Shown one piece after another: positions 4,766-59,972 of a stretch of 64,000 nucleotides of DNA (within the stretch, counting starts at the first letter, position 1; each line of letters starts with the position of its first letter). Source of the DNA: Paracoccus saliphilus (GTDB taxonomy: Bacteria > Pseudomonadota > Alphaproteobacteria > Rhodobacterales > Rhodobacteraceae); assembly GCF_028553805.1 (NCBI RefSeq), contig NZ_CP067140.1:2604001-2668000 (forward strand), written 5' to 3'. A model generated the notes under the pieces. That model made no database searches. It had not been told where the DNA came from and saw only the letters and a list, made by a program, of their open reading frames with translations. The position numbers and the translations under genes are program-made.

Positions 4766-4893
4766 GTGTACGGGCTGTGTACGCCCTGTGCACATGTGGT
4801 GTACGGGCTGTGCAGCCGGATCTCCAGCATTTGCTGGGCGAACCGGGCATGCCGTTGCGGATCGTCACATATGCAACGCACGGCGATGTTGCG
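4766..4893 (+). repeat. Five-iteron/GTTGCG module, copy A
   Basis: Hexamers GTGTAC, GTGTAC, GTGCAC, GTGTAC and GTGCAG start at 4766, 4777, 4788, 4799 and 4810, an exact 11-bp period. A perfect inverted repeat CAGCA-TT-TGCTG follows near 4825-4836. Then come GTTGCG at 4854, TGCAACGCAC at 4872 and GTTGCG at 4888. The spacing 44/18/16 from the last hexamer is shared with copy B. It lies between bamE and sseB, both on the minus strand. The 278-bp gap holds no gene that I can support; stop-free frames through it are not conserved between copies. Confidence 0.85.
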
Positions 4894-4920
4894 CGGATCT
4901 GCAGCATCGCCGTGGCGAGC

Positions 4921-5370
4921 TTAGTCGATGAAGTCGCCAGCCTGGAAATTGCCCAGATTGCCGAGGATTTGCCCGATCAGCGAAATCTCTGTCACGCTGG
5001 TATCGGTAACCCGGCGCGACAGGGCGACAACCCGGCCACGCTCAAGGCCGAACCGTTCGACATTGCTGACAACGCCTTGGGGGTTAAAGGAAATCGCGAC
5101 AACCTCGCGACTCACTTCCTCGGGTTCCCGCGGACCGTAGTGGCGCCAGCGCGAGCCCACGTAATACCATCCCGACCCGGTCAGAAGCCCCTGCGCCGAG
5201 GGACGCCCGATCAACGTCGGAAGTTGGTCCATTGTGGTTTCGCCCACGACCACCTGCGCCAGATCCGTATCCGGCGGCACGAAGCCGTGATTGCGATAGA
5301 CTGGAGAACAGGCTGCAAGCCCGAGAATGGTCACCAGGACCAGGATCAGCACCTGCCGAATTGCGGCCAT
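4921..5370 (-). CDS. bamE: Outer membrane protein assembly factor BamE (SmpA/OmlA lipoprotein)
   Basis: A 149-residue lipoprotein starting at the ATG at 5370. The N-terminus IRQVLILVLVTILGLAACSP is a lipoprotein signal with lipobox LAAC, so Cys is lipidated. The BamE fold is indicated by YRNHGFVPPDTDLAQVVVGE, TTMDQLPTLIGRPSAQG, WYYVGSRWRHYG and the REVVAISFNPQGVVSNVERF strand pair. It acts at the periplasmic face of the outer membrane in the BAM complex. Its length fits alphaproteobacterial BamE. It is divergent from the yceD gene with 162 bp between them, which probably holds promoters for both. Confidence 0.92.
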   Translation of the reverse strand: MAAIRQVLILVLVTILGLAACSPVYRNHGFVPPDTDLAQVVVGETTMDQLPTLIGRPSAQGLLTGSGWYYVGSRWRHYGPREPEEVSREVVAISFNPQGVVSNVERFGLERGRVVALSRRVTDTSVTEISLIGQILGNLGNFQAGDFID

Positions 5371-5532
5371 GAAAATGTTATCCCTCTGCTCGGACTGTTG
5401 ACGCGGCCCGACCGGCTTAGCAAACTCGCACCCGGCGCTCAAGAATATCCATCGGCGGTCGGGGGTTGCGCTACCCGGTCCTGCGGCAGAAAAGCCGATC
5501 GAACCCGCCGACAGATCGCCAGAGGTCCTATA

Positions 5533-6063
5533 ATGATCGCCCCAGACTCTCATCCGCAACGCCTGCGAGTGGCGCATCTGAACCCGCGCGCGCCCACCCC
5601 GTTTACCCTGCGTCCCGACGCGGAAACCCGTGCGGCCATTGCCGAAGAGCTGGGGTTGCAAGGGCTACCCAAGCTGGAATTGCAGGGCGAATTGCGTGCG
5701 GAAGGCGGCGATGCCTGGATCTTGCAGGGGCGACTCACCGCCCGGGTCGTGCAATCCTGCGTGATCACCCTGACGCCGGTGAAGACCAACCTCACCGAGA
5801 AGGTGCATCGCCACTATTCTCCGCATCTCCGCCCTCCCGAGGACGAAGAGGTCGAAATGCCGGACGATGCCCTCGAACCTCTGGGCCAGTTCATCGACCT
5901 GACAGCCGTCATGATAGAGGAGCTGACATTGACCCTGCCCGACTATCCCCGCGCCGAAGATGCCGAAATGCCGGAAATTGCCGAGGATACGCCCGAATCC
6001 GATACCCGCCGGCCCTTTGCCGATCTGGACAAGCTGCTGAAGGATGACGGGAATCAGAAGTGA
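5533..6063 (+). CDS. YceD/DUF177 family protein, probable 23S rRNA accumulation factor
   Basis: A 176-residue DUF177 protein. I place the start at the ATG at 5533 (MIAPDSHPQRLRVAHLNP). A much longer open frame extends upstream but crosses bamE and repeat module A, so it is rejected. The core ARVVQSCVITLTPVKTNLTEKVHRHY keeps the single conserved Cys expected for the family (V-x-C-V-x-T-L-x-P), and the acidic tail ends in RRPFADLDKLLKDD. YceD is found upstream of rpmF across bacteria and is linked to 23S rRNA accumulation. Here rpmF follows after 239 bp. Confidence 0.88.
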   Translation: MIAPDSHPQRLRVAHLNPRAPTPFTLRPDAETRAAIAEELGLQGLPKLELQGELRAEGGDAWILQGRLTARVVQSCVITLTPVKTNLTEKVHRHYSPHLRPPEDEEVEMPDDALEPLGQFIDLTAVMIEELTLTLPDYPRAEDAEMPEIAEDTPESDTRRPFADLDKLLKDDGNQK

Positions 6064-6302
6064 TTGCGCGGCTCTGCCAGTAACGTTTTGTAACCTTGTA
6101 ACAGAATCACCTTGTGCGGGCCGGTGTTTCGAGCCACGATCCGTGGACAGAGTGGTGAACAAGGCACATTTCCGGCCTCGGCACCGCTGCAAGGGCTTGC
6201 GGGCGCGAGTTTCATGGCGTATCTGCGCGGTTCATTTACGAATTCAAAACACACGGTGCGTATGCCGCAAGGACGCCGCACCCAGCTAACCGAGGTTGTG
6301 AC
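6064..6302 (+). other. Leader between yceD and rpmF
   Basis: 239 bp without a gene. It probably carries the promoter and leader of the rpmF-plsX-fabH operon. I see no clean terminator or named riboswitch. The ribosome site for rpmF is the GAGG about 9 bases before its ATG (ACCGAGGTTGTGACATG). Confidence 0.4.
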
Positions 6303-6509
6303 ATGGCTGTCCCTCAGAACCGCATTACCCGTTCCAAGCGCAACATGCGCCGTGCACATGATGCTCTGGTCGCCGGGAACCCGAATGAATGCACGAATTG
6401 TGGCGAACTGAAGCGCCCGCATCACGTGTGCCCGTCCTGTGGCCACTATGCCGATCGCGAAGTTGTCGCGCAGGCGAGCGAAATCGATCTCGACGACGAC
6501 GCGGCCTGA
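6303..6509 (+). CDS. rpmF: 50S ribosomal protein L32
   Basis: A 68-residue protein beginning [20 protein letters not shown], the unmistakable L32 N-terminus. The zinc ribbon is present as [18 protein letters not shown] (CxxC...CxxC). The C-terminus ends in acidic residues (EIDLDDDAA). It is a component of the large ribosomal subunit. It lies 22 bases upstream of plsX, the standard coupling of a translation gene to phospholipid and fatty-acid synthesis genes. Confidence 0.98.
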
Positions 6510-6531
6510 TCGGGGCCGGCATCGCCACCTG

Positions 6532-7641
6532 ATGACCACCGATCCCACCAGTTCGGCACCGCGCGCCCCTGAAAACGGGGGCAGCGTGGTGATTTCGGTT
6601 GACGCGATGGGAGGCGATCGCGGTCCCTCGGTCGTAGTCGCCGGGATGGCCGAGAGCGCCAGGAAGAATCCCGAGATCCGGTTTATCGTGCATGGCGACG
6701 AAGCTCAGCTTCGCCGCCTCATCGCGCGTCGCAAGGAATTGTCCGGACGCTGCGACATTCGCCACACGACAGGCGTGGTCACGATGGAGGACAAGCCGAG
6801 CCAGATCGTCCGCAAGGGCGACGGCACCTCGATGTGGTCCGCCATCGAATCGGTCAAGACCGGAGAGGCCGGGGCCGCAGTTTCTTGCGGCAATACCGGC
6901 GCGCTGATGGCCCTGTCGATGCTGCGGCTGCGCAAGCTGCCGGGCGTGAACCGCCCTGCGATCGCCTGCCTGTGGCCTTCGAAGAATCCCGGCGGCTTCA
7001 ACATCATGCTAGATGTGGGAGCGGATATCCGTGCCGATGCGCCGGATCTGCTTCAATACGCGTTGATGGGTGCTTCCTATGCACGCAACGGCATGGATAT
7101 CGCCGAGCCGCGGATCGGGTTGCTGAACGTGGGAACCGAGGATCACAAGGGCCGGGCCGAACTGAAACAGGCCCATGACCTGATGTCCGCGGCGGCCGAG
7201 ACCGGAAACTTCCGATATGTCGGCTTCGTCGAGGGTGGCGATCTGCCCTCTTCGCGTGTAGATGTCATCGTGACCGACGGCTTTACCGGGAACATCGCCT
7301 TGAAGACCGGCGAAGGCACCGCGAAGCTGGTCGGTGAATTCCTGAGGCAGGCCTTTGCCAATTCGATCATGTCAAAATTCGCGGCGCTGCTGGCCATGAC
7401 CTCGCTCAAGCGCTTGCAGAAACGGATCGATCCGCGCCGTGTGAATGGCGGAATATTCCTTGGCCTCAACGGCACGGTGATCAAATCGCATGGCTCGGCC
7501 GATGCGACCGGCGTGTCGGCGGCGATCAAGCTTGCCTTTCAATTGACGAAATCCGGCTTTCAGGACCGCTTGGCCGCCCGCGTTGCACAAAGCGCCGCCA
7601 CGCTGCCCTCTGGCATAGAATCAGAAGGAGCCGCATCGTGA
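6532..7641 (+). CDS. plsX: Phosphate acyltransferase PlsX
   Basis: A 369-residue enzyme that makes acyl-phosphate from acyl-ACP for phosphatidic acid synthesis. The chosen ATG at 6532 (MTTDPTSSAPRAPENGG) lies just after rpmF; an in-frame ATG at 6439 is inside rpmF and is rejected. Family motifs: VVISVDAMGGDRGPSVVVAG, SCGNTGALMALSM, LDVGADIRADAPDLLQYALM, GLLNVGTEDHKG and VDVIVTDGFTGNIALKTGEG. The N-terminal ~20 residues are an extra, low-complexity extension. It overlaps fabH by 4 bases (GTGA), implying translational coupling. Confidence 0.97.
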   Translation: MTTDPTSSAPRAPENGGSVVISVDAMGGDRGPSVVVAGMAESARKNPEIRFIVHGDEAQLRRLIARRKELSGRCDIRHTTGVVTMEDKPSQIVRKGDGTSMWSAIESVKTGEAGAAVSCGNTGALMALSMLRLRKLPGVNRPAIACLWPSKNPGGFNIMLDVGADIRADAPDLLQYALMGASYARNGMDIAEPRIGLLNVGTEDHKGRAELKQAHDLMSAAAETGNFRYVGFVEGGDLPSSRVDVIVTDGFTGNIALKTGEGTAKLVGEFLRQAFANSIMSKFAALLAMTSLKRLQKRIDPRRVNGGIFLGLNGTVIKSHGSADATGVSAAIKLAFQLTKSGFQDRLAARVAQSAATLPSGIESEGAAS

Positions 7642-8612
7642 CCCAACGCGCAGTCATTACCGGAACGGGGCATTACCTGCCCGAACGCGTGGTCGAGAAC
7701 AGCTGGTTCGAGGACAAGCTAGACACGTCGGACGAATGGATCCGGGCCCGCACCGGGATCGAGCGGCGGCATTTCGCGGCCGAAGGTCAGGCAACCAGCG
7801 ATCTGGGGATCCATGCCGCCCAAGCCGCTCTGGACAAGGCCGGATTACAGCCGGATGATATCGACGGCATCATCCTGGCAACTTCGACACCGGATTTCAC
7901 TTTTCCCGCCGTCGCGACCATGGTGCAATCCGGGCTGGGGATGACCCGTGGCTTCGCATTTGACGTTCAGGCCGTCTGCGCCGGTTTCGTCTTTGCGCTG
8001 GCCAATGCCGACGCGATAATCCGGTCCGGACAGGCCGAGCGCATCCTCGTGATCGGGGCAGAAACATTCTCGCGCATCATGGACTGGACCGACCGGGGCA
8101 CCTGCGTGCTGTTCGGCGACGGTGCCGGCGCCGTCGTTCTGGAAGCGCAAGAGGGCGAGGGCGACAACAGCGATCATGGCATTCTGGCCTGTGATCTCAA
8201 CAGTGACGGCCGGTTTCGCGAATTGCTCCATGTCGATGGCGGTGTCTCGAGCACCGGCACAGCGGGGCAACTGCGAATGCAGGGCAACCTGGTCTTTCGT
8301 CATGCCGTCGAAAAGCTGGCCAAGACCGCCCATGCGGCACTGGACAAAGCCGGGCTAAGCCCCTCCGAGGTGGACTGGCTGGTCCCGCATCAGGCAAATC
8401 TGCGGATCATCTCGGCCACGGCGCAGAAGATGGGCCTGCCGATGGAGAAAGTCATTCTGACCGTCGCCGATCACGGCAATACCTCGGCGGCCTCGATCCC
8501 GTTGGCGCTTTCAGTTGCCGATGGTCAGGGCCGGTTCAAGCCGGGCGATATCCTTGTGACCGAAGCCATCGGCGGCGGATTGAGCTGGGGTTCGACGGTT
8601 CTGCGCTGGTAG
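7638..8612 (+). CDS. fabH: 3-oxoacyl-[ACP] synthase III FabH
   Basis: A 324-residue condensing enzyme that starts fatty-acid synthesis from acetyl-CoA and malonyl-ACP. The start is GTG at 7638, overlapping the plsX stop, with a strong AGAAGGAG at 7623-7630. The catalytic triad is visible: Cys in FDVQAVCAGFVFAL, His in DWLVPHQANLRI and Asn in VADHGNTSAASIPLAL. The N-terminus ITGTGHYLPERVVEN and the TSDEWIRARTGIERR segment are typical. In many Rhodobacterales ihfA follows directly; here a DksA-like gene and TRAP genes intervene. Confidence 0.98.
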   Translation: MTQRAVITGTGHYLPERVVENSWFEDKLDTSDEWIRARTGIERRHFAAEGQATSDLGIHAAQAALDKAGLQPDDIDGIILATSTPDFTFPAVATMVQSGLGMTRGFAFDVQAVCAGFVFALANADAIIRSGQAERILVIGAETFSRIMDWTDRGTCVLFGDGAGAVVLEAQEGEGDNSDHGILACDLNSDGRFRELLHVDGGVSSTGTAGQLRMQGNLVFRHAVEKLAKTAHAALDKAGLSPSEVDWLVPHQANLRIISATAQKMGLPMEKVILTVADHGNTSAASIPLALSVADGQGRFKPGDILVTEAIGGGLSWGSTVLRW

Positions 8613-8619
8613 ACCCGAA

Positions 8620-8676
8620 GGGGCGCTGCTCCCGCCCCTGACGGGGCTTCCCCGGGGTATTTACATGAAGAATAAG
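8620..8676 (+). repeat. GATATTTG-hairpin repeat, copy 2
   Basis: A diverged short form. It has a GGGGCG/CGCCCC hairpin, then GGGGCTTCCCCGG, then GTATTTACATGAAGAATAAG. It fills the 74-bp gap between the converging fabH and DksA-like genes. The AAG end points at the 3' end of the minus-strand gene, 11 bases away. Confidence 0.75.
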
Positions 8677-8686
8677 GCTCAAGCCA

Positions 8687-8965
8687 TTATTTCAGCTGAG
8701 AATCCTTGCTGGCACGACGATTGATTCCGGCTGCGGGGCGGCGGGCCTTGTCGCGGTCGGATTGGCAGGTGACGCAGAGCTGCACACCCAGAATGGCCTC
8801 GCGCCGGGCCTGGGGAATCGGCTCATCGCATTCAGCGCAGAATTCGGCAGAGGCGACCACGCCTTCGGGACGGGCGGCGCGCGCCCTTGCGCGGGCGATG
8901 GCCTCGGCCGTGCTGATCTCGATCTGCTCGTTCACCGCGTCGTCGCGGGCCCATCCTCCGGCCAT
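8687..8965 (-). CDS. DksA/TraR C4-type zinc-finger protein
   Basis: A 92-residue protein. I choose the ATG at 8965 (MAGGWARDDAV) because AAGGAG ends 6 bases before it, while an ATG at 8971 abuts the AAGGAG. The zinc finger reads FCAECDEPIPQARREAI then LCVTCQSDRDKARR (CxxC-x17-CxxC), as in short DksA/TraR/YbiI proteins. The long N-terminal coiled coil of true DksA is absent apart from a short helical Ala/Arg segment. It may bind RNA polymerase, but that is inference from the family. It stands alone on the minus strand between fabH and the TRAP genes. Confidence 0.87.
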   Translation of the reverse strand: MAGGWARDDAVNEQIEISTAEAIARARARAARPEGVVASAEFCAECDEPIPQARREAILGVQLCVTCQSDRDKARRPAAGINRRASKDSQLK

Positions 8966-9127
8966 GGCCATCTCCTTCCGATCCTTCGAAGATAGGCAAA
9001 CTCGCCTCATGTTTCAAATCCACGACCCTCTCCTCCTTTCGGTTGACACCCCGCATGGCATTGACGAAGACTGAAACCCGAATACAGGTGCAGAAGGCAC
9101 CGCTGACCTGTTGGGAGGGTCCATATC

Positions 9128-9649
9128 TTGCCGATCATTCGGGTGATCGACGGCATCAACGAGGTCGTCGGCCGGATCATATCCGTCGTCGCGATCTTCT
9201 TTGCGGCCATCATAATCTATGACGTCTTCATGCGGAATTTCTATGGCGAACCGACCCGGTGGGCCTTTGATCTGACGAAGCAGCTTTATGGCTTTTATTT
9301 CATCATGCTGGGCGGTTACGCCCTGCGTCATCAGGCGCATGTGCGGGTCGATCTCGTCACCGCCCGGCTTGGGCGCAATGCGCGCCGGTGGGTCGAGGCG
9401 GCCGGATACGTGATCTTCTTCTTCCCGTTTGCATGGGTCTTTGCCCGCCGCAGTTGGGATTTCGCCATGACGTCATATGCGCAGGGCGAGGTGACCTATG
9501 GGGCGGTGCAATTGCCGGTCTATCCGTTGAAGATCGCGATGTTCGTGGCTGCCGTTCTGCTCTTGCTCCAGGGCATCAGCGAATTCCTGAAGCTGGTGCT
9601 GAACAAGGCCGACCACCTGGAAAGCATGGAGCCGCTGGATGTCCGGTGA
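9128..9649 (+). CDS. TRAP transporter small permease subunit (DctQ type)
   Basis: A 173-residue inner-membrane protein with four predicted helices (IISVVAIFFAAIIIYDVFM, LYGFYFIMLGGYALRH, VIFFFPFAWVFARRSW, IAMFVAAVLLLLQGISEFL). The family signature DVFMRNFYGEPTRWAFDLTK and HVRVD are visible. The start is TTG at 9128 with GGGAGGG 8 bases upstream. It overlaps the large permease gene by 11 bases. DctQ helps dock the binding protein and is essential for transport. It is first in a Q-M-P operon. Confidence 0.93.
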   Translation: MPIIRVIDGINEVVGRIISVVAIFFAAIIIYDVFMRNFYGEPTRWAFDLTKQLYGFYFIMLGGYALRHQAHVRVDLVTARLGRNARRWVEAAGYVIFFFPFAWVFARRSWDFAMTSYAQGEVTYGAVQLPVYPLKIAMFVAAVLLLLQGISEFLKLVLNKADHLESMEPLDVR

Positions 9650-10964
9650 AACGATTGCGCTGATCATGTCGGGCCTGCTTCTGCTCGGCCTGTTCATGGG
9701 GCATCCGCTGGCCCTCGTTCTGGGCGGAACCGCCGTGCTTGGCGCGCTGATCGCCGGAAAACCGATGGTGCTGGGCATCGTCATCAACCGGATCTTCGGC
9801 GATGTGCTGGACAATTACGTCCTGATCGCCATTCCGCTTTTCGTGCTGATGGCCCGTTTCCTGTCCGACAGCGGCGTGACCGACAAGATGTTCGAGGCAT
9901 TGCGCCACCTGATGGCACGGGTGACCGGCGGGCTGGGCCTCGCGGTGGTGTTCATCTCTATCCTGCTGGCGGCGACGACCGGCATCATCGGCGCCTCGAT
10001 CACGGTGATGGGCATGATGGCGCTGCGCCCGATGCTGCAATATGGCTATGACCGCAAGCTGGCAACGGGACTTATCGCGGCCTCGGGCTGTCTGGGCATC
10101 CTGATCCCGCCCTCGATCATGCTGATCCTGATGTCCTCCTATGCGCCGGGACTGTCGGTAGGACAGCTTTTTGCGGGCGCGATGGTCCCCGGCATGGTGC
10201 TGGGCTTTCTCTATGCCGTCTATGTCGCCATCATTGCCCGGATCAAACCGGAATGGGCTCCGGCGATTGCCGAGTCGGAACAGATCAGCCGTGGCGCCAT
10301 GTGGCGGATGCTCATCGTCGAGGCGGTGCCGCCGCTCCTGCTGATCCTCGGGATTCTGGGCTCGCTTTTGGCCGGGATCGCCACCGCGACCGAGGCCAGC
10401 GCCATCGGCACCCTATGCGCACTGGCGATCGTGATCCTGCGCGGGCGTTTCGAATGGAAGACCTTCTATTCGGCACTACTGGAAACCGGGCGGACCTCGG
10501 CCATGATCCTGTTCATCGTGGTCGGCGCGACTGCATTCACCGGGGTATTCAACATCACCGGCGGGTTGCGCGCCAGCCAGGACGTGATTCGCGGCTTCGC
10601 AAGCGATCCCTACATGCTGGTCGCGGTCATGCTGATCGCGGTGTTCATCCTCGGCATGTTCCTCGACTGGACGGGGATCGTCCTGCTGTCCTTCCCGATC
10701 TTCCTGCCGCTGGTCAATGAAATGGGCGTCGATCCACTGTGGTTCGTGGTGCTGATGGCTGTGGTGCTGCAAACCAGCTTCCTGTCGCCGCCATTCGGAT
10801 ATGCCTTGTTCTACATGCGGGCCATTGCTCCGCCCGAGGTGACGATCGGAGATATCATCAAGGGCGTACTGCCTTTCATCGGCCTGATCATCATGATCTG
10901 CGCCATGATCATCATATTCCCGGGAATGGTAACCTGGCTGCCGACCAGCCTGTATGGCGGCTGA
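9639..10964 (+). CDS. TRAP transporter large permease subunit (DctM type)
   Basis: A 441-residue membrane protein of the DctM family with about 12 helices, the usual size. Typical stretches are GLLLLGLFMGHPLALVLGG, LIAIPLFVLMARFL, TGIIGASITVMGMMALRPML, CLGILIPPSIMLILMSSYA and FILGMFLDWTGIVLLSFPIF. It forms the sodium-driven translocation channel together with DctQ. The start overlaps dctQ by 11 bases, so the two are translationally coupled. Confidence 0.96.
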   Translation: MSGETIALIMSGLLLLGLFMGHPLALVLGGTAVLGALIAGKPMVLGIVINRIFGDVLDNYVLIAIPLFVLMARFLSDSGVTDKMFEALRHLMARVTGGLGLAVVFISILLAATTGIIGASITVMGMMALRPMLQYGYDRKLATGLIAASGCLGILIPPSIMLILMSSYAPGLSVGQLFAGAMVPGMVLGFLYAVYVAIIARIKPEWAPAIAESEQISRGAMWRMLIVEAVPPLLLILGILGSLLAGIATATEASAIGTLCALAIVILRGRFEWKTFYSALLETGRTSAMILFIVVGATAFTGVFNITGGLRASQDVIRGFASDPYMLVAVMLIAVFILGMFLDWTGIVLLSFPIFLPLVNEMGVDPLWFVVLMAVVLQTSFLSPPFGYALFYMRAIAPPEVTIGDIIKGVLPFIGLIIMICAMIIIFPGMVTWLPTSLYGG

Positions 10965-11003
10965 TTCCCGAGACAATCAACCAGGATCAACAAGGAGGTA
11001 ACG

Positions 11004-12092
11004 ATGTTAAAGCGATTGATGACAACTGCCGCGCTCACGCTGGCAGGTGCCGCGCCGGCCATGGCGGAGAACTGGACGATGACCACCACCTGGCCGTCCA
11101 GCCTGGAACTGATCGAAATCGACAAGCACTGGGTCGAACTGGTCAATCAACTGGTCGATGACGACAAGCTGACGATCGAATTCTACGACGGCGGCAGCCT
11201 GGTTCCCGCGGGCGAGGTCTTTGGTGCAGTCGAATCGGGCACAGTGCAGGCCGGCGCCGATTGGCCGGGCTATTGGGCCGGGCGCGACAGCGCTTTCTCG
11301 CCCCTGTCCACGACGGCGAGCCTGTTCAATGCCGTGGATTACGTGAACTGGATCCAGGAATGGGGCGGTGCCGATCTCTATAACGAGGTCTATGGCAAAT
11401 TCGGCATGGTTTACCTGCCCTACGGTGTGACCAATAACGAATCGGGTTTCCGCACCGTCGACAAGCCGGTGAAGACCATCGAGGATCTGAACGGGCTGCG
11501 CCTGCGCCTCTCAGGGCTGGAACAGGGCAAGCTGCTTGAAAAGCTGGGCGGCAACCAGGTCAGCATGGCCGGCGGAGAGATCTACCAGTCGCTCGAACGC
11601 GGCGTGATCGATGGCGCCGAGTTCTCGACCCCGAATGTCGATTTCTCGGGCGGCTTCCAGCAGGTGACGAAATACTGGTCGACACCGGGCTGGCACCAGT
11701 CCTCATCGGTCTTTGGAGTCATGATCAACAAGAGCGCATGGGATGCCCTAGACGAAGACACCCAGAACAAGCTGCAGATCGCGGCGGATGCCAACCTGCT
11801 GTGGAGCCTGGCCTTTACCGAAAAGCGCGCGACCGAGGCATTTGCCCAGTTCAAGGAAGCCGGGACCGAAATCAACCGGCTGGATGATGCCGCGCTCGAA
11901 CAGATCCAGAAGATGGCGAATGAAACCATCGAAGAGGTTGCCTGCGAAAACCCGCTCTCGGCCAAGGTCTATGCCAGCCAGATCAGTTATCTGCAGGATT
12001 ATGCAAGCTGGCGCGACGCCTCCGCCCCGTTCAACCTCGGCCGCACGCCGCAAGGCCCCGATCTGGCCAAGATCGAGGAATGTGCGCAGTAA
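11004..12092 (+). CDS. TRAP transporter substrate-binding protein (DctP/TakP type)
   Basis: A 362-residue periplasmic protein with a signal peptide (LKRLMTTAALTLAGAAPAMA, cleavage before ENWTM). CAAGGAGGTAACG precedes the ATG. The DctP core includes GGSLVPAGEVFGAVESGTVQ and NGLRLRLSGLEQG, which holds the Arg expected to bind a carboxylate, followed by SMAGGEIYQSLERGVIDGAEF. The closest general type is the TakP-like group for 2-oxo acids and other organic acids; the ligand is not predictable here. It sits 39 bases after dctM as the last gene of the operon. Confidence 0.94.
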   Translation: MLKRLMTTAALTLAGAAPAMAENWTMTTTWPSSLELIEIDKHWVELVNQLVDDDKLTIEFYDGGSLVPAGEVFGAVESGTVQAGADWPGYWAGRDSAFSPLSTTASLFNAVDYVNWIQEWGGADLYNEVYGKFGMVYLPYGVTNNESGFRTVDKPVKTIEDLNGLRLRLSGLEQGKLLEKLGGNQVSMAGGEIYQSLERGVIDGAEFSTPNVDFSGGFQQVTKYWSTPGWHQSSSVFGVMINKSAWDALDEDTQNKLQIAADANLLWSLAFTEKRATEAFAQFKEAGTEINRLDDAALEQIQKMANETIEEVACENPLSAKVYASQISYLQDYASWRDASAPFNLGRTPQGPDLAKIEECAQ

Positions 12093-12119
12093 TTCGCGCA
12101 AATCAATGCGACAAGTCAC

Positions 12120-12143
12120 GGGCGGGGAACGATTTCTCCGCCC
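12120..12143 (+). terminator. Probable terminator hairpin between dctP and ihfA
   Basis: A ten-base stem (GGGCGGGGAA with TTCTCCGCCC, one G-U pair) has a 4-base loop. The tail ATTGCATTGAC is poor in T, so termination may be partial or factor-dependent. It would separate the TRAP operon from ihfA. Confidence 0.5.
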
Positions 12144-12504: not shown

Positions 12505-12520
12505 GGATGGCTACTGACAG

Positions 12521-27667: not shown

Positions 27668-27763
27668 TAGGCTGTCCCGGCGATCCGAACGGAGGCAGGT
27701 CGGTCACGAGAACCCTTTTACCATCTCCCACTCAGGCAAACGCGATCCGTGGAAGGCAAAGCC

Positions 27764-28420
<657 letters not shown>

Positions 28421-28568
28421 GAGGCATCGCGGAAAGCCGCTGCAATCCTTCTGATGCCCCGCAGGCCCTCACATCCGGCCCATCCCTGTCGCACTAACCT
28501 TACCACAACCAAGCTTTAACCGTTCATTCACGGATAACTTGGCGTCACCCCAGCAACTTGCGTTGCCC

Positions 28569-28696
28569 GTGTACGCACTGTGTACAGGCTGTGCACGCCC
28601 GGTGCACGGGTTGTGCAGCCGAAAACCTTGCATTTTCTGTGTCAAGCCACTCTCCCGTTGCGCGGTGTCACCGATGCAACGCACGCATCTGTTGCG
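28569..28696 (+). repeat. Five-iteron/GTTGCG module, copy B
   Basis: GTGTAC, GTGTAC, GTGCAC, GTGCAC and GTGCAG start at 28569, 28580, 28591, 28602 and 28613 (exact 11-bp steps). GTTGCG at 28657, TGCAACGCAC at 28675 and GTTGCG at 28691 repeat the 44/18/16 spacing of copy A. The central inverted repeat is degenerate here (TTGCATTTTCTG). It sits between two converging genes, so it is unlikely to be a promoter. Confidence 0.85.
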
Positions 28697-28725
28697 CCTA
28701 CGGCCAAGCTCCGGGCAGATTCATA

Positions 28726-28864: not shown

Positions 28865-29488
28865 CTAGTCGCGGAAGTTCCGACTGTCCTTGACCTGATC
28901 CCAGGCCCAGACAACCTCGGCCAGCCGGTCTTCATCCGAGCGGTCTCCGCCATTCATATCCGGATGCAAGTCTTTCACCAGGGATTTGTATTGCTTACGG
29001 ATTTCCGGTTTGGTCCAGCTATCCTTGGCCTCCAGGATCTCCAGTGCCTTGCGTTCGGTGGGTGGTAGTTTCCGACTGATCTTCTGCCGCGCCTCGGGCG
29101 AGGTGCCGTTCGCGCCCAGGATCTCGAGCGGATCGCTGACGCCGTGGCGCGCCCAAGCCTGTTCCTGCGCGCGCCCGAAGGGCTTGGTTGGCCGTTCCCA
29201 CACCGTCGCATTATCCAGGAATTGCTGGAATTCCTCTTCGCTCTGGCCCTGGAAATAGTTCCAGTTCTGGTTGTACTCGCGCACATGTTCCTTGCAGAAC
29301 CAGAAGTAATCATCCAGATTCCTTGGGTTTTTCGGCGCACGATACTGTCCCGGCTCGTTGCATCCCTGCTTTTCGCAGATGCGGGTCGAGGTTTCGAACG
29401 CGCCTGACATGCCACGTCGGCCCTTGGCCCGGCGCTTCTTGTCCTTGGCGGCGGAAATGTCGAAACCGAACGGATCGTTTCTGCTCAT
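28865..29488 (-). CDS. J-domain (DnaJ-like) protein
   Basis: A 207-residue protein whose J domain is at the C-terminus (~145-205): RKALEILEAKDSWTKPEIRK, then YKSLVKDLHPDMNGGDRSDE with the HPD tripeptide that stimulates Hsp70. The N-terminal part has DPFGFDISAAKDKKRRAKGR and CxxxxC-like residues (RICEKQGCNEPGQYRAPKNP) of a type conserved in Rhodobacteraceae. It lacks the Gly/Phe and zinc regions of DnaJ, so it is a specialised co-chaperone. A GTG at 29500 would add MSQT; the ATG at 29488 is preferred. Confidence 0.9.
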   Translation of the reverse strand: MSRNDPFGFDISAAKDKKRRAKGRRGMSGAFETSTRICEKQGCNEPGQYRAPKNPRNLDDYFWFCKEHVREYNQNWNYFQGQSEEEFQQFLDNATVWERPTKPFGRAQEQAWARHGVSDPLEILGANGTSPEARQKISRKLPPTERKALEILEAKDSWTKPEIRKQYKSLVKDLHPDMNGGDRSDEDRLAEVVWAWDQVKDSRNFRD

Positions 29489-52772: not shown

Positions 52773-52782
52773 CGCGAATCAC

Positions 52783-53166: not shown

Positions 53167-53180
53167 GGCGCTTTCCCTGC

Positions 53181-54758
53181 CTAGTCTGCGAAAAGATGTT
53201 CAGTTCCGGCGAGATCCTGCGCGATTTCTGGCGAGACGTCCAGAAAACGCTCGAGGCTCACCGCATTCTGATCGAGCGGCTGCCCATCCGCGATGACCTG
53301 GAACCGCTCGAAATTCATGTCGCGCAATCTCTCGGCCTCCTGATCCAGATCGGCCCGGACCACGGGCAACAACCGTTCGACGACATCCGCCGGGGTGGTC
53401 GCCCCGGTCAATCCGATTCGTCCCATATGGCCGCGCAGATAGTCGTCGTCGAATTCGTTGTCGATGAACAGGATCCGGGTCTCGGCCTTGTCACCGACGA
53501 AATCGGTGATCAGCGAGAGCGCCGAGGGATCGATGCACAACACCATCTGGCGGCTTTCATATTCGTCGAACAACAGACGCAGCAATGCGCGCCGATGGCG
53601 TTGCCGCTTCGTCAGGCTGGAAGCAACGCCGCCCAGCCAGGGCAGGTTGGCCTCCTGTTCGTCGAACACGTAATCCAGCGCGGGAATCGTCGTCAGTTCC
53701 CGGATTCTCGCCGTAAGCCTCTTGGCGATATGCCATTTCTTGGCAACGATCAGGTGAACCATCTGGTTGCGGCCCAGACTGCCCTCGCTTTCCCAGAAAC
53801 GCGGCGCGAATCGGCGACCGATCCTGCCGCGCCCGGTCAGGAAACGGAAAAGCCGCGGCCCCTCGTCAGAGATGACGAATTCCTGTCCGTTGGCCTGCCA
53901 CAGCGCCCCAAGCCTTTCCCGCAACTCCAGTGCCTCGGCGCTGATCTTGCGTGCGAAAAGGTAGTCCTGGCGCAACAACAAATCATAGTGATCGTTGTAG
54001 AAAGTGGCGGGCATTCCGTAATCGGTGAACATCAGGAATGTCAGTGTCCTCCGATGGATCTCGGTCTTCGGCACGAGATGCGCGACCAGTGTCTGAAAGA
54101 AGGTCTCGTCGGGAATCCATGTCGTCGCGAAGAATCGCATCACGTCGCGCCGTTCCCGGCAGAAATTCAGCAGGTTCTGGATCGTCTGGCGGCGCAGGCA
54201 CCACCATTGCGAGCCGATCATGACCTGCAGATCCGAGGGGATATTCCGCCGGATCCTGAACCGCCTTTGCAGGTCGAGACTGGTGTAGAACAGCCATTTA
54301 TTCTTACGTTCGTTGAAGAAATGCCGATAGACCAGGCGCTCTTCCTTGATGCCGGTCTTGATCCAGTCACTTTCGAAAAAGTCAAAACTTTCAATGAAGT
54401 CGCCATCATGCCGCGCCAGGAAATCATGCGCGTACTCCCCGGATTTGACCGGCATGCAATCACCCGACAGCATGTAGAAATGCGTGGCCTCGGGGAACGC
54501 CTCCACCGCCGCCTCGACGGCAAGCAGCGTCGCCGCGACCAGCGACCACTCCCCCCAACCGCATTTCAGCCGCCGTTTCGCGAAGGTGACACCCGGATCG
54601 TCCTTCAGGGCTGTATGGATACGCTCGAAATAGCGCTCCGGAGCGCTTGCGTCGAAATGTATCGACACAAAATCGCCCGTGGCAGTAAGCCGCCGAGCTT
54701 GTGCGATGACCCCTTCGGGATCCTTATGAGTCAATAGGATAAAGGCGATACGTGTCAT
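53181..54758 (-). CDS. GT14-like N-acetylglucosaminyltransferase with DUF5928 domain
   Basis: A 525-residue protein. The N-terminal ~300 residues are of the core-2/I-branching glycosyltransferase (GT14) type: IAFILLTHKDPEGVIAQARR, FVSIHFDASAPERYFERIHT, HFYMLSGDCMPVKSGEYAHD and QVMIGSQWWCLRRQTIQNLL. The C-terminal ~220 residues are a domain I know as DUF5928, seen attached to such enzymes in Rhodobacteraceae. It probably modifies an exported glycan. It is divergent from a sulfotransferase gene. Confidence 0.85.
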   Translation of the reverse strand: MTRIAFILLTHKDPEGVIAQARRLTATGDFVSIHFDASAPERYFERIHTALKDDPGVTFAKRRLKCGWGEWSLVAATLLAVEAAVEAFPEATHFYMLSGDCMPVKSGEYAHDFLARHDGDFIESFDFFESDWIKTGIKEERLVYRHFFNERKNKWLFYTSLDLQRRFRIRRNIPSDLQVMIGSQWWCLRRQTIQNLLNFCRERRDVMRFFATTWIPDETFFQTLVAHLVPKTEIHRRTLTFLMFTDYGMPATFYNDHYDLLLRQDYLFARKISAEALELRERLGALWQANGQEFVISDEGPRLFRFLTGRGRIGRRFAPRFWESEGSLGRNQMVHLIVAKKWHIAKRLTARIRELTTIPALDYVFDEQEANLPWLGGVASSLTKRQRHRRALLRLLFDEYESRQMVLCIDPSALSLITDFVGDKAETRILFIDNEFDDDYLRGHMGRIGLTGATTPADVVERLLPVVRADLDQEAERLRDMNFERFQVIADGQPLDQNAVSLERFLDVSPEIAQDLAGTEHLFAD

Positions 54759-54925
54759 GTAAACGATTCACAGTCTTGCTGTATAAACAGAGTTTGCATT
54801 TTTAATGCGTTGAAAATCCCCTCGGGGTTTGCTTTCTGTCTGTAGCAATTTTGAGTACATGGGCAAGCCGGTTGTCGCTAAGCGGTGGAAATCGGCCAAC
54901 GTTAATAAGAGAGAAGAGAATCACT

Positions 54926-55744
54926 ATGGGGTTTCCCGGCGTTTGGATGACCGAGAGTGGCAGCATGATCTACCGGGTGGTGCCGAAATGCGCCTGCTCG
55001 ACGATCGGACAGATCATGTTCTACTCGGATCACGGTCGTTTTTTTGATGGCGATATCCACGATTCGACCGATGGTCTGCATAAATGGTCGCAAGACGACA
55101 GCCAGAAGGTGATCGAAAGCGCGGTTCTGGGCCATAAGACGCCCACCTTCACCTGTGTCCGCAACCCCTATTCGCGCATCCTGTCCTCGTTCTTCGACAA
55201 GATCGCGGGCATTCAGCGCAACGGACGGCGCTATCGCGGCAATCTGGTGCCGCAACTGATCCAGCGCTACGGCATCGATGTCGGCACCCCGGAAAACGGC
55301 TTCGAATTCGACCAGATCGCCAGCTTCCGCCGCTTCCTGCTATTCGCGCGGGACACCATCCGCTGGCGCCGACCGATGGACCCGGACATCCATTGGTCTG
55401 CGATGTCGGGACATATCGGGACTTTCATCGCCAATGGCGGCCAGTACAATCGCATATTCTTCACCGAGAAATTCAACGAGGGAATGCAGCAGGTTCTGAA
55501 AGGCTCGAAAACGCCGAACAGCATCGACCTGAAAGATGTGCCGCGCTTCAACGAATCCGAAGGCCACGGTCCCAAGCGGGCGCATAAGGTCAGCGACTAT
55601 TTCGACGACCTGTCACGCCATCTGATCTGGGAAATCTACAAGGACGATTTCCAGCTCTTCCGCTATGATTTCGATGATCCCGACAACAAGATGCCGATCG
55701 GAGAGGTCGACCTGAACGAAGTTCACGCCAAGCTGGGCCGCTGA
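54926..55744 (+). CDS. Sulfotransferase family protein
   Basis: A 272-residue protein from the ATG at 54926 (MGFPGVWMTESGSMIYRVVP), preceded by GAGAAGAG. The PAPS-binding motifs are IYRVVPKCACSTIGQIMFYS (5'-PSB) and FTCVRNPYSRILSSFFDKIA (3'-PB). It matches the sulfotransferase-2 group that modifies carbohydrates. It is divergent from the GT14-like gene with 167 bp of relatively AT-rich DNA between, so a shared task in glycan decoration is possible. Confidence 0.85.
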   Translation: MGFPGVWMTESGSMIYRVVPKCACSTIGQIMFYSDHGRFFDGDIHDSTDGLHKWSQDDSQKVIESAVLGHKTPTFTCVRNPYSRILSSFFDKIAGIQRNGRRYRGNLVPQLIQRYGIDVGTPENGFEFDQIASFRRFLLFARDTIRWRRPMDPDIHWSAMSGHIGTFIANGGQYNRIFFTEKFNEGMQQVLKGSKTPNSIDLKDVPRFNESEGHGPKRAHKVSDYFDDLSRHLIWEIYKDDFQLFRYDFDDPDNKMPIGEVDLNEVHAKLGR

Positions 55745-55825
55745 TCCGAAGATAGGCAAGCTGCGCGCGGAGGGTAGACATAATCTACGTCCTCCCGCCA
55801 GCAGCCCCTATTTCATGAAGACATG

Positions 55826-55867
55826 AAAAAGCGGCGCCTCCTGCCAGAGAGCGCCGCTTCATTTTTT
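55826..55867. terminator. Bidirectional terminator between sulfotransferase and acpP
   Basis: An 8-base stem (AGCGGCGC 55831-55838 with GCGCCGCT 55852-55859) is flanked by GAAAAAG on the left and TTCATTTTTT on the right. For acpP on the minus strand the tail is TTTTTC; for the plus-strand gene it is TTCATTTTTT. It can serve both convergent genes. Confidence 0.88.
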
Positions 55868-55891
55868 GCCTTGATCAGGCGAGGTGCCGTC

Positions 55892-56125
55892 TCAGACGGC
55901 GCCCTTGATGAACGTCACCGCGTCGCCAACGGTTTGAATCGTCTCTGCGGCGTCATCGGGAATCTCGATGCCGAACTCTTCTTCGAAGGCCATCACCAGT
56001 TCCACAGTATCGAGGCTGTCTGCGCCCAGGTCATCGATGAACGAGGCAGACTCGGCCACCTTGTCCTCATCGACGCCCAAATGCTCGACAACGATCTTTT
56101 TCACGCGATCAGCGATATCGCTCAT
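55892..56125 (-). CDS. acpP: Acyl carrier protein
   Basis: A 77-residue acidic protein. The phosphopantetheine Ser is in [20 protein letters not shown]. It starts [20 protein letters not shown] and has GAGGATATGAC upstream. It carries the growing chain in fatty-acid synthesis. The position beside fabG and fabD is the canonical fab cluster order on the minus strand, fabD-fabG-acpP. Confidence 0.99.
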
Positions 56126-56219
56126 GTCATATCCTCATTCTCGCGGGCATCCGCCCAATCTTGTTCCCGGGCGACGGCCCGTGCCAGCACAGGGCGGTTT
56201 CCCTGCTGCTAAAGGCGGG

Positions 56220-56247
56220 GATATAGCACCCAATATCCCTCATGCAA
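56220..56247 (-). promoter_or_regulatory. Possible acpP promoter
   Basis: On the minus strand TTGCAT (56247-56242) and TATATC (56225-56220) are 16 bases apart, roughly 95 bases upstream of the acpP start. It would give acpP extra transcription independent of fabG. Confidence 0.4.
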
Positions 56248-56296
56248 CCGCTTTTCCAAGCTTTTTGTCGCCGCGTTGCAGCACGGCCCTTTCGGA

Positions 56297-57034
56297 TCAG
56301 ACCATTGCCATTCCGCCATTCACATGCAGCGTGGCCCCGGTCACGTAACCGGCCTCGGCGCTGGCCAGGTAAGCGACGGCCCCGGCGATCTCGGTGGGGC
56401 TGCCCATGCGACCGACGGGAATTTGCCCCAGGATCTTGCCTTTCTGCTCGTCATTCAGCTTGTCGGTCATCGCCGTCTCGATGAAACCGGGGGCGACGCA
56501 GTTCACCGTGATCCCCCGGCTCGCCACCTCGTAGGCAAGGCTTTTCGACATGCCGACCAATCCCGCCTTGGCCGCGGCATAATTGCCCTGCCCCGGATTT
56601 CCCGTCGCGCCAACGACCGAGGTGATATTCACGATCCGCCCCCAACGCGCCTTCATCATCCCGCGCAGCACCGCCCGGGACAGTTGAAACACGCTGGTCA
56701 GGTTGACGTCCAGGACCTGGCTCCATTCCTCGTCGGACATCCGCATGAACAGGTTGTCCCGCGTGATCCCGGCATTGTTGACCAGGATATCCACCGATCC
56801 CATCGCATCCGCCGCCGCCTTGGGCAGCGCGGCGACAGCTTCGGCATCCGCCAGATTCGCTGGCACCACATGCGCCCGCTCCCCCAGCTTCGCGGCCAGT
56901 TCCTGCAACGGCGCCTCGCGCGTTCCCGACAGCGCGACCGTAGCCCCCGCCGAATGCAACGCCTCGGCGATCGCGCCGCCGATTCCGCCCGACGCGCCGG
57001 TCACCAGCGCGTTCTTTCCCGTCAAATCAAACAT
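56297..57034 (-). CDS. fabG: 3-oxoacyl-[ACP] reductase FabG
   Basis: A 245-residue SDR from the ATG at 57034 (MFDLTGKNALVTGASGGIGG). The NADPH site is TGASGGIG, the structural NNAG is present in VDILVNNAGITRDNLF, and the catalytic YxxxK is in GNYAAAKAGLVGMSK. Ser is in NITSVVGATG. It reduces beta-ketoacyl-ACP. The ribosome site is AAGAAGAGGTGGG, supplied by the tail of hairpin repeat copy 9. It lies between fabD and acpP. Confidence 0.98.
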   Translation of the reverse strand: MFDLTGKNALVTGASGGIGGAIAEALHSAGATVALSGTREAPLQELAAKLGERAHVVPANLADAEAVAALPKAAADAMGSVDILVNNAGITRDNLFMRMSDEEWSQVLDVNLTSVFQLSRAVLRGMMKARWGRIVNITSVVGATGNPGQGNYAAAKAGLVGMSKSLAYEVASRGITVNCVAPGFIETAMTDKLNDEQKGKILGQIPVGRMGSPTEIAGAVAYLASAEAGYVTGATLHVNGGMAMV

Positions 57035-57040
57035 GCCCAC

Positions 57041-57092
57041 CTCTTCTTCATTCAAATATCCTCTGGGGGTCCGGGGGGCGAAGCGCCCCCGG
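57041..57092 (-). repeat. GATATTTG-hairpin repeat, copy 9 (fabG ribosome site)
   Basis: On the minus strand: CCGGGGGCGCTTCGCCCCCC, GGACCCCCAGAGGATATTTG, AATGAAGAAGAGG. It is the leader of fabG between fabD and fabG. The AAGAAGAGG ends 6 bases before the fabG ATG. The internal ATG would give M-K-K-R-W-A-C-L-I then stop, overlapping the fabG start out of frame. Confidence 0.85.
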
Positions 57093-57111
57093 AAAATACC
57101 CCCGACCTGTC

Positions 57112-58038
57112 TCACCCCTTCAACGCGGCGATATCCGCCGACACGCCGATATTCTTCACCACCGCCTCGCGCGAAATCCGCTTGATCATGCCCGACAGTG
57201 CCTTGCCCGCGCCGATCTCCCAGAACTCGGTCACGCCCGCCTCGACCAGATGTACCACCGATTCGCGCCAGCGGACCGTGCCGGTTACCTGCTCGACCAA
57301 CAGCCGCCGAATCGCGCCAGGCTCTGTCACCGGCTCGGCGCGGACATTGGCGATCAGCGGCACGGCGGGCGCCTGGATATCCACCCCGGCCAACGCATCC
57401 GCCATGACCGCGGCGGCAGGCTGCATCAGCACCGAATGGAACGGAGCTGATACCGGCAGCATCAGCGCCCGCTTCGCCCCCGCCTCCTTCGCGGCAGCGG
57501 CGGCACGCTCCACGGCATCCTTGTGACCCGAGATCACCACCTGCGCCGGATCATTGTCATTGGCGGCCTGCACGACCTCGTCGCCCGCCACCTCGCGCGC
57601 GATGCGGTCCACCGTCTCGAAATCGAGCCCAAGGATCGCCGCCATCGCGCCCTGCCCGACCGGCACCGCCTCCTGCATGGCCCGCCCGCGCAGGCGCAAG
57701 AGCTGCGCCGTATCGGCCAGCGTCAGCGCTCCCGCTGCGCAGAGGGCCGAATATTCGCCCAGGGAATGCCCGGCGACATAGCTGGCGGCGGAAATGTCGA
57801 TCCCCTCGGTCTCCATCGCCCGGAACGCCGCCATCGAGGCCGCCATCAGCGCCGGCTGCGCGTTCTGCGTCAGCGTCAGCGTCTCGATATCGCCCTCCCA
57901 GATCAGCGCCGACAATTTCTCGCCAAGCGCCTCGTCCACCTCGGCGAACACGTCACGCGCCGCCGGATAGGCCTCGGCCAGGTCGCGCCCCATACCCACG
58001 GTCTGCGCACCCTGCCCCGGAAACACAAATGCCCGCAT
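57112..58038 (-). CDS. fabD: Malonyl-CoA:ACP transacylase
   Basis: A 308-residue enzyme that loads malonate onto ACP. The nucleophile Ser is in VAGHSLGEYSALCAAGALTL, the Gln/Gly start is FPGQGAQTVGMGRDLAEAYP, and the His/Arg partners are in VSAPFHSVLMQPAAAVMADA and RGRAMQEAVPVGQGAMAA. The length is normal. It is the first gene of the fabD-fabG-acpP set on the minus strand. Confidence 0.98.
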   Translation of the reverse strand: MRAFVFPGQGAQTVGMGRDLAEAYPAARDVFAEVDEALGEKLSALIWEGDIETLTLTQNAQPALMAASMAAFRAMETEGIDISAASYVAGHSLGEYSALCAAGALTLADTAQLLRLRGRAMQEAVPVGQGAMAAILGLDFETVDRIAREVAGDEVVQAANDNDPAQVVISGHKDAVERAAAAAKEAGAKRALMLPVSAPFHSVLMQPAAAVMADALAGVDIQAPAVPLIANVRAEPVTEPGAIRRLLVEQVTGTVRWRESVVHLVEAGVTEFWEIGAGKALSGMIKRISREAVVKNIGVSADIAALKG

Positions 58039-58133
58039 CTAAACCCCCAGAAATGTTTTCCTTATACTCCGGCATAGCGCGGGCAAGGCATTGCCGCAAC
58101 TCGCAGGGCAACCGGAACGCAGCCGATGCAATG

Positions 58134-58160
58134 AAAAAAGGGGGCCCCGAAGGCCCCCTT
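58134..58160 (-). terminator. Rho-independent terminator of ndk
   Basis: On the minus strand AAGGGGGCC-TTCGG-GGCCCCCTT is followed by a run of TTTT. It starts 26 bases after the ndk stop and separates ndk from fabD. Confidence 0.92.
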
Positions 58161-58186
58161 TTCCAATTCCGAACAATAAGAACCGA

Positions 58187-58609
58187 TCAGCCGACCAGTT
58201 CCAGCCCCGAAAAGAAGAACGCGATTTCCTGCGCGGCAGTTTCCGGCGCATCCGAGCCGTGAACCGAGTTCTCGCCGACCGACAGGGCGAATTCCTTGCG
58301 GATCGTGCCCTCGGCAGCATCGGCCGGGTTGGTCGCGCCCATCACTTCGCGGTTCTTGGCAATGGCGCTCTCGCCTTCCAGCACCTGCACCACCACCGGC
58401 TCCGAGGCCATGAATTCCACCAATTCGCCATAGAAGGGGCGTTCCTTGTGAACCTCGTAGAACTTGCCGGCCTGCTCGGGCGACAGCTTGATGCGCTTCT
58501 GCGCGACGATGCGCAGGCCCGCTTCTTCGAATTTGGCGTTGATCTTGCCGGTCAGATTGCGCTTGGTGGCATCGGGCTTGATGATCGACAGGGTGCGTTC
58601 GGTGGACAT
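58187..58609 (-). CDS. ndk: Nucleoside diphosphate kinase
   Basis: A 140-residue enzyme from the ATG at 58609 ([20 protein letters not shown]), with AAAGGTAA upstream. The active-site His is in [20 protein letters not shown]. It moves the terminal phosphate from ATP to other NDPs. An upstream in-frame extension without family sequence is rejected. Confidence 0.99.
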
Positions 58610-58808
58610 GGATTTACCTTTATCTGCGGCAGGCCGCGCCCGCCATGAATGAGATCCGCGTCCGGTTATCAGGCTTCTTTCAGACCGGCAAGACTGCGCG
58701 CCCGCCAGTCCGGCCACGGCACAAAAAATCGCCGTCCCATTGCGCTTTCGTGAAACCGATACAACATTGAGGTAGTTGATCCGCGTGGCAAGCAAAGGCG
58801 GCGCCGAC

Positions 58809-59564
58809 ATGCAACCATTCCGCAAGGGCCAGTATCAGGCGAGACTGGCCGAAACGCCCGAGGATATCCGCGCAGCGCAGCGCCTGCGCTGGCTGTGCTT
58901 CATTGCCCGCAACGAAGCGGGCGACGGCGGCGACCAGGTCGATAGCGACGCGCTGGATGCGGAATGCCGCCACATGCTGGTCGAGGACATGACAACCGGG
59001 CAGCTTCTCTGCTGTTTCCGCTTCCTGCCCCTGTCCGGCGGGTCCGAGATCGCCCGCAGCTATTCGGCCCAGTTCTACAATCTCGACGCATTGGCGGATT
59101 TCGACGGTCCGATGGTCGAGATGGGGCGTTTCTGCATCCATCCCGAGGCCCGCGATCCGAATATTCTGCGGATTGCATGGGCGGCCATGACCCGCTTCGT
59201 CGACGAGGCCGGGATCGAAATGCTGTTCGGCTGCTCCAGCTTTACCGGCACCGAACCCGAAGAACATGCCGAGGCCTTCGCCATGCTCAAGGAACGCCAT
59301 CTCGCCCCCCGCCGCTGGCTGCCGCGGGTCAAGGCGCCGAAGGTCTTCCGCTTCGCCCGCGCCCTGCGTCTGCGCAAGCCCGACCCAAAACGGGCGATGG
59401 CCACGATGCCGCCGCTCTTGCGCAGCTACCTGGCCATGGGCGGTTGGGTCAGCGATCACGCGGTGGTCGATTCCTCGCTTCGGACAATGCATGTCTTTAC
59501 CGGTGTCGAGATCCGCGCCATCCCCCCGGCCCGTAAGCGGCTCTTGCGCGCGGTCGCGGGATAG
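58809..59564 (+). CDS. L-ornithine N-alpha-acyltransferase (OlsB type, GNAT-like)
   Basis: A 251-residue protein from the ATG at 58809 ([20 protein letters not shown]); a TTG at 58776 with TGAGG upstream is an alternative. It matches the OlsB/acyl-homoserine-lactone-synthase-like fold: [40 protein letters not shown] and [20 protein letters not shown]. It would acylate ornithine with 3-hydroxyacyl-ACP, the first step of ornithine lipid. The partner olsA (PlsC type), often adjacent, is not in the window after it. Confidence 0.82.
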
Positions 59565-59582
59565 CGGCGCATCGGCGGATTT

Positions 59583-59679
59583 GCGTCCCGCGATGGCCGG
59601 GGCTCTGCCGTCGTCGGCAGGTCTCTCGAACCGGTGGCGCGGCCGGCCGGCGACCCCGGGATATTTTCATGAAGAATAG
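59583..59679 (+). repeat. GATATTTG-hairpin repeat, copy 10 (long form)
   Basis: A long form with GCGTCCCGCGATGGCCGGGG, CTCTGCCGTCGTC, the inserted GGCAGGTCTCTCGAACCGGT and GGCGC, then CCCCGGGATATTTTCATGAA and GAATAGA. It begins 18 bases after the OlsB stop. Confidence 0.85.
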
Positions 59680-59845
59680 AAAGCGGGCTCGGGCTGTTGG
59701 GCGTGAGTCGGATTCCATCGATGGCCATTTATTCCATGATGGAAACAATAATCCGCATATTTGAAAGATTATGCGCGAAATGGAGTCTGCCTCTACACGT
59801 TACTGCGCGAAAATCGCCACCAGAGCCGCGCGATGCTCGCTGCCT

Positions 59846-59972
59846 GTGTACGCTCTGTGTACAGGTTGTGTACGCCCTGTGCACGGGCTGTGCGACGAGA
59901 ATCCCAGCATTTGCTGACTGAATCGGGTGCATGTTGCGAGGCTGTGCCGATGCAACGCACGCTGCCGTTGCG
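59846..59972 (+). repeat. Five-iteron/GTTGCG module, copy C
   Basis: GTGTAC, GTGTAC, GTGTAC, GTGCAC and GTGCGA start at 59846, 59857, 59868, 59879 and 59890, again at 11 bp. A CAGCA-TT-TGCTG inverted repeat lies near 59905-59916. GTTGCG at 59933, TGCAACGCAC at 59951 and GTTGCG at 59967 give spacing 43/18/16, one base shorter than A and B in the first gap. It is in the same orientation as the others. Confidence 0.85.

Follow-up and report, generated by a model that had tools for sequence, protein, structure and literature searches.

What is the element that recurs three times, in the same layout and orientation, within 64,000 nucleotides of the Paracoccus saliphilus genome (contig NZ_CP067140.1, positions 2,604,001 to 2,668,000 of the forward strand; this whole stretch is called the window below), and what could it do there? 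What is secure is the kind of element, not its mechanism: the three copies belong to an interspersed, non-coding repeat with a core of about 145 bp. The family is best filed as a new one that resembles the repetitive extragenic palindromic (REP) and BOX repeats. In the window its cores lie on the plus strand at 4750–4894 (copy 1, expectation value E=1.0e-30; 2608750–2608893 on the main contig according to the match of model R1, introduced below), 28553–28697 (copy 2, E=2.1e-31) and 59830–59973 (copy 3, E=7.9e-30). Each is composed of a left arm (GCARCG...CGYTGC, starting at 4750 in copy 1), an array of five iterons stepped at 11 bp, the palindrome CCCAGC-ATTT-GCTGGG and a right module of GTTGCG, TGCAACGCAC and a second GTTGCG, and the core has short inverted ends (CGCAAC / GTTGCG).

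Direct reading of copy 1 gives four GTGYAC units and one GTGCAG (array at 4766–4815, plus strand) starting at 4766, 4777, 4788, 4799 and 4810, a step of exactly 11 bp. From start to start, the fifth iteron is followed after 44 bp by GTTGCG at 4854, after a further 18 bp by TGCAACGCAC at 4872 and after 16 bp by GTTGCG at 4888, the last two parts of this right module (4854–4893, plus strand) making up the predicted helix P5. Copies 2 and 3 align in register with copy 1; the three copies and the spacings that the sequence-only reading had described are thus confirmed by direct reading and by alignment. Its description of five GTGYAC-type hexamers is right for the 11-bp step and needs amending for the fifth unit, which more commonly takes a GTGCAG or GTCACAG form. 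Likewise, the motifs by which it had delimited the unit are all present, but the conserved unit begins earlier, with the left arm, and takes in the CCCAGC palindrome. Beyond the core edges, per-column information in the alignment drops to about zero. Left flanks differ, copy 2 having that of a subclass with ..TTGGCGTCACC and copy 3 one with TTATTCCAT...AAATGGAGT. Across the family the arrays have 3 to 5 iterons, with a period of exactly 11 bp.

The spacing, as had been supposed, is kept and not accidental: a pattern of two neighbouring iterons, TGTGYACN4TGTGYAC, matches the genome 72+46 times, while the reversed control pattern gives 0 matches. R1, a sequence-only model built from 14 of the 20 copies known at that stage, finds 70 copies in the genome (G000; contigs C1 of 4,378,448 bp and C2 of 242,883 bp) at E<=7.3e-15, the next match being at E=0.0176, and all 100 of the 118 iteron-pair matches that were examined fall inside these copies. 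The expectation that more copies would be found elsewhere in the genome is thereby borne out, and with 70 dispersed, intergenic, non-coding copies the family has the character of a small interspersed repeat. In the R1 search, contig C2 yielded no copy, against about 3.9 expected from its length.

This distribution does not favour a chromosome-organising or replication-linked site, one of the functions suggested from the window. Sites of the parS, matS and KOPS type are distributed regionally or oriented by replichore. Genome-wide the repeat occurs in 41 plus and 29 minus orientations, so that the shared plus orientation holds within the window and not as a rule of the genome. With replichores set by parS (4,351,560 and 4,353,435) and a switch in sampled GC skew near 1.85 Mb, 31 copies are oriented along the leading strand and 39 in the opposite sense; a strand bias by replichore is not seen. 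Intervals between copies are close to random (coefficient of variation 1.14, compared with 0.98 for simulated random placement). Moreover, in a survey of 125 Paracoccus genomes under strict filters, with 25 candidates scored per genome, R1 matches 51 genomes at E<=1e-4 and leaves 74 without a match, and a close relative (G018) has 9 copies. A site of the parS, matS or KOPS type was rejected on the replichore counts and the spacing. A different likeness exists to plasmid partition sites: ParR binds 11-bp parC repeats, and parC of plasmid R1 is made of five direct 11-bp units. The Paracoccus repeat differs in having 70 chromosomal copies and none on the second contig. The largest gap between copies is a 444-kb copy-free stretch (C1 2118111–2561751; P=0.04), which lies away from the skew switch.

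A regularity is seen in the position of the repeat relative to genes. According to crude gene calls, the right-hand neighbour faces the element at 52 of 70 copies, with its stop codon 0–60 bp away in 42 and <=35 bp away in 38. Two of the 18 exceptions, one of them copy 1, are gene-calling errors that were mended on the evidence of Pfam domains (BamE and Polyketide_cyc2), which support facing genes with stops about 27 and 14 bp from the element; three further candidate errors are without Pfam support and were left as called. After mending, the right neighbour faces the element at 54 of 70 copies and has its stop within 60 bp of the right edge at 44 of 70. On the left, 45 genes face the element and only 5 of them have a stop 0–60 bp away. 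Where the neighbouring genes converge (34 cases), the right edge is the one closer to its stop in 28 (P=2e-4). The same placement is found in six other species (genomes G018, G106, G084, G110, G023 and G100), in which the gene faces the element at 15 of 20 copies, and in 13 of these cases does so within 67 bp.

Copy 1 has a minus-strand gene on either side, and because only about 26–27 bp separate its right edge from the stop codon of an open reading frame (ORF) with a BamE domain (4921–5661, minus strand) it obeys the rule followed by most copies. For copy 3 the corresponding distance is 31 bp, to the stop codon of an ORF with a glycine-transporter domain (60005–60643, minus strand), and copy 2 sits between a GST-domain ORF (27749–28420, plus strand) and a DnaJ-domain ORF (28865–29488, minus strand). 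The view that the copies are not promoters of their neighbours holds for most of them, the majority lying behind stop codons. Placement also bears on the idea of an operator belonging to a conventional transcription factor regulon. Only 7 of 70 copies are located between divergent genes by crude calls, and none of the 20 in the six other species is; in addition, those neighbours to which a name could be given are unrelated to one another. Arrays of iterons do precede a start codon in some other genera, as at loci L137 and L232, where some tens of bp separate a GTGYAC array from the start codon of what we take to be a dihydrolipoamide dehydrogenase-like gene. Even so, an operator function for the Paracoccus repeat seems very improbable.

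Whether the element acts as nucleic acid structure was examined in alignments of 51 of the 70 G000 copies (alignment A4) and in a combined set of 121 copies (the 70 of G000 and 51 from other species, with identical, partial and weak ones removed). Spacers 1 and 2 of the iteron array are complementary to each other (z 5.4 over the 121 copies, 4.8 in G000 and 2.0 in other species), with no other spacer pair above z 1.8, and the stem they would form encloses iteron 2. A structure containing this stem shows 48 two-sided changes compared with 32.3+-3.8 after shuffling. Its covariation score was reached by 0 of 500 shuffles, versions slid along the alignment attained at most 0.071 against 0.190, and a smaller structure gave a concordant result. 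There is no alternation between spacers 2 and 3, but a register shift as the cause of the covariation is only partly excluded. Pairing of iterons 1–4/2–3 covaries weakly, its score being reached by 18 of 500 shuffles.

A second line of evidence is the direction of single changes in the 121 copies. Variation in iterons 1–4 falls on Y4, A5 and C6 and is rare at G1, and of their transitions 30 preserve pairing on the plus strand and 0 break it. The right-end hairpin has 31 A>G changes compared with 7 T>C, and its sixth pair takes the form G-C or G-U. Fold energy is lower on the plus strand in 63 of 70 G000 copies. The mean fold z values for plus and minus strands are -2.00 and -1.23 in these copies and -2.31 and -1.72 in other species, with -0.80 and -0.61 in the G000 flanks. 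An RNA read from the minus strand was rejected, as its consensus fold energy is 0 compared with -9.9 for the plus strand.

Because the variation is partly one-sided, as G-U pairing allows, and because one stem covaries, a folded plus strand RNA is favoured here. The modelled fold, supported but not proven, would pair iteron 1 and spacer 1 with spacer 2 and iteron 3 around iteron 2, and would add a second iteron hairpin, the CCCAGC hairpin and a right-end GCAAC/GTTGC hairpin. In this interpretation the family consists of small, modular, non-coding repeats behind stop codons that act through their folded plus strand, most likely as RNA, an interpretation to which we give slightly less than an even chance. 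Plus strand transcripts, coming from the upstream gene or running antisense into the 3' end of the facing gene, would fold at the core, and the fold may then insulate or fix transcript ends. Perhaps a protein reading UGUGYAC repeats takes part, one that a lineage could lose.

Several observations weigh against such a folded RNA. At 25 of 70 copies there is no upstream gene in plus sense that could supply the transcript. Pairs changed on both sides (7 compared with 6.4) and further pair types (33 compared with 31.7) are at shuffle level, and the shuffles themselves leave relatedness between copies in place. The covariation of spacers 1 and 2 derives mostly from two common spacer types; the remaining 19 copies give P=0.045, and the other species z 2.0. 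In the iterons, 18 transversions and 4 Y>G changes disrupt pairing. T>C occurs 29 times in the first GTTGC, which leaves helices P4 and P1 unsupported. The plus strand folds better in only 25 of 51 other-species copies, and the flanks in G000 also favour it (42 of 70, P=0.04). By eye, the alignments show no consistent T-run after the hairpins (no terminator scan was made), and an obvious intrinsic terminator was rejected on that inspection. For the structured RNA that the sequence-only reading had offered as an option, compensatory changes give a mixed picture: the spacer 1/2 stem covaries, and the other helices vary mostly on one side.

The main rival is a site in duplex DNA, at which a multimeric protein would stack on one face of the 11-bp iterons while a second contact reads GTTGCG, blocking transcription at gene ends or organising the DNA. 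It explains the 11-bp phase well, given the exact period over 3 to 5 units. Similarly, GTG of iterons 1–4 is nearly invariant in the 121 copies, which also fits a protein reading TGTG in DNA. Other Rhodobacteraceae have arrays that lack the remainder of the core and frequently have GTTAAC close by, and at five compared sites in G018 the element has been lost, as if a factor had been lost. On the other hand, a duplex site predicts neither the complementarity of the spacers nor the one-sided wobble variation, and copies are neither oriented by replichore nor evenly spaced. No candidate protein was identified, RAYT being the only protein searched for. This explanation is considered rather unlikely.

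Copies in G000 have a mean identity of 66%, with a nearest-neighbour median of 78% and a maximum of 85%, and no recent copies are present in the sense that no pair exceeds that maximum. Between copies, 62 columns average 90% identity, 20 columns 32% and the unaligned flank 27%; as columns were sorted by conservation itself, this contrast shows only that both kinds coexist in a short element. About 40 distinct copies of other species were compared (24 + 20 loci, four in both). Six share their site with a G000 copy (L106 and L269 (both G018), L111 (G106), L103 (G068), L108 (G098) and L273 (G084)), the identity of the flanks being about 69 to 92%. At four loci (L275, L276, L280 and L283) the sequence beside a G084 or G110 copy is copy-free in G000. 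G018 is 89–92% identical to G000 in shared stretches, yet its count at E<=1e-3 is 9. Within the first 400 kb of G018, orthologous flanks mark the sites of five G000 copies (one of them on a single side); none of the five retains a full core, and one has kept the right module as judged by eye.

Copying of the repeat has left a trace in its left modules. Subclass I has the hairpin AGTATG-TTTTT-CRTACT, and each of the 15 exact genomic sites of this hairpin (e.g. C1 1052949–1052965) precedes a core by 89 to 101 bp. Left module and core of this subclass were therefore duplicated jointly, in a unit no shorter than 235 bp. Different left modules are seen in the other subclasses, and hairpin P0 is not universal: among the scanned other-species copies it is present in one (G018). 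On mobilisation as the source of copies the evidence is divided: left modules are shared, yet recent copies are missing. A separate common repeat, X (e.g. GTCCCGCGATGGCCGGGGG..CCCCCGG..GGATATTTGCATGAAGAAGAAG), often lies left of core copies and also occurs alone; six pattern matches are found in the window, at 3119+, 14479-, 21701+, 30917+, 35247- and 48345+.

Such copying invites the alternative that the repeat is a parasitic, non-autonomous mobile element, now mostly silent and tolerated behind genes, whose subclasses are old copy lineages. The joint copying of the subclass I hairpin, sites that differ between species and partial RAYT matches in G000 itself agree with this, and pneumococcal parasitic repeats are likewise enriched between convergent genes (PMC3049150). 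However, copy edges show no target duplication (k=2..9, no excess over shuffled pairs). RAYT family PF01797 is found in 12 of 125 genus genomes, with mostly partial matches in G000, G015, G085 and G087, and is absent from G084, a genome with 73 copies; REP/RAYT mobilisation was rejected because the gene does not track the repeat. The identity values show no recent copies, neutral old copies should decay evenly whereas here many columns are kept and others lost, and tolerance alone leaves the orientation to the stop codon unexplained. A parasitic repeat is considered unlikely. Split or partial Y1 transposase matches were seen in G000 at C2 79617–79930 and C1 1581466–1581642.

A more specific proposal treats the roughly 70 copies as a genome-wide set of old cis elements, each under its own constraint and located behind a stop codon. 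A putative Rhodobacteraceae RNA- or DNA-binding factor would read them and insulate convergent transcription, and lineages could lose this factor together with the elements. We regard this as possible, though tentative.

How far the family extends is partly seen in other genomes. When 39 of the 51 matching Paracoccus genomes were searched more fully, they held 2 to 73 copies each at E<=1e-3, the largest number being that of G084. Other Rhodobacteraceae, to which the sequence-only reading had pointed, contain iteron arrays with other arms. A three-iteron pattern has at least 120 matches over GTDB, and 70 of the 80 matches listed carry Rhodobacterales labels. Among the matches listed, many arrays outside Paracoccus lack the GTTGCG module and have GTTAAC nearby instead; matches to the full core are nearly confined to the genus genomes and Paracoccus records. 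Arrays in other Rhodobacteraceae are likely a distant counterpart of the Paracoccus repeat. At L160 and L227 they lie between what are presumably rpoA and rplQ. Gene types that recur beside arrays, each facing the array, are presumed to be gltD-like (L147, L200, L222), moaB-like (L189, L226) and hisH-like (L150, L233). Two G000 neighbour genes, which we take to be mcl- and rluA-like, also recur beside arrays of other genera; by a rough estimate this is at chance level and was not used.

Comparison with known systems gave likenesses and differences. A known RNA family was sought with the covariance models of Rfam 15, where at gathering scores the window yields only a tRNA and the best match of copy 2 has E 1.4 and 10 bits, the gathering score being 35. 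Plasmid and phage searches with copy 2 gave no match. No description of the family was found in the literature searched, though one may still exist. Pneumococcal BOX elements are small and modular, have ends around a variable tandem unit, can fold if transcribed, are enriched between convergent genes and turn over slowly (PMC3049150). The Paracoccus repeat resembles them in each of these respects, compared by anatomy only, and differs in that its tandem unit is 11 bp long and helically phased and its orientation is tied to the stop codon. REP sequences and bacterial interspersed mosaic elements (BIME) with RAYT are similarly multi-copy, extragenic, palindromic and partly located directly behind stop codons (PMC2817692, PMC12306157), whereas the Paracoccus repeat is a 145-bp composite core untracked by RAYT. 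Miniature inverted-repeat transposable elements (PMC3049150) share its being short, non-coding and dispersed with short inverted ends; the repeat differs in lacking target duplication and near-identical copies, host insertion sequences not having been surveyed.

On Paracoccus chromosomes the repeat makes up a large feature, and none of the families searched matched it. If its fold or its iterons recruit a factor, it would represent a dispersed system for transcript ends or insulation beyond intrinsic and Rho termination. Even if it is parasitic, the long retention of its motifs, in an orientation that favours one side of stop codons, offers a way to test selection on repeats.

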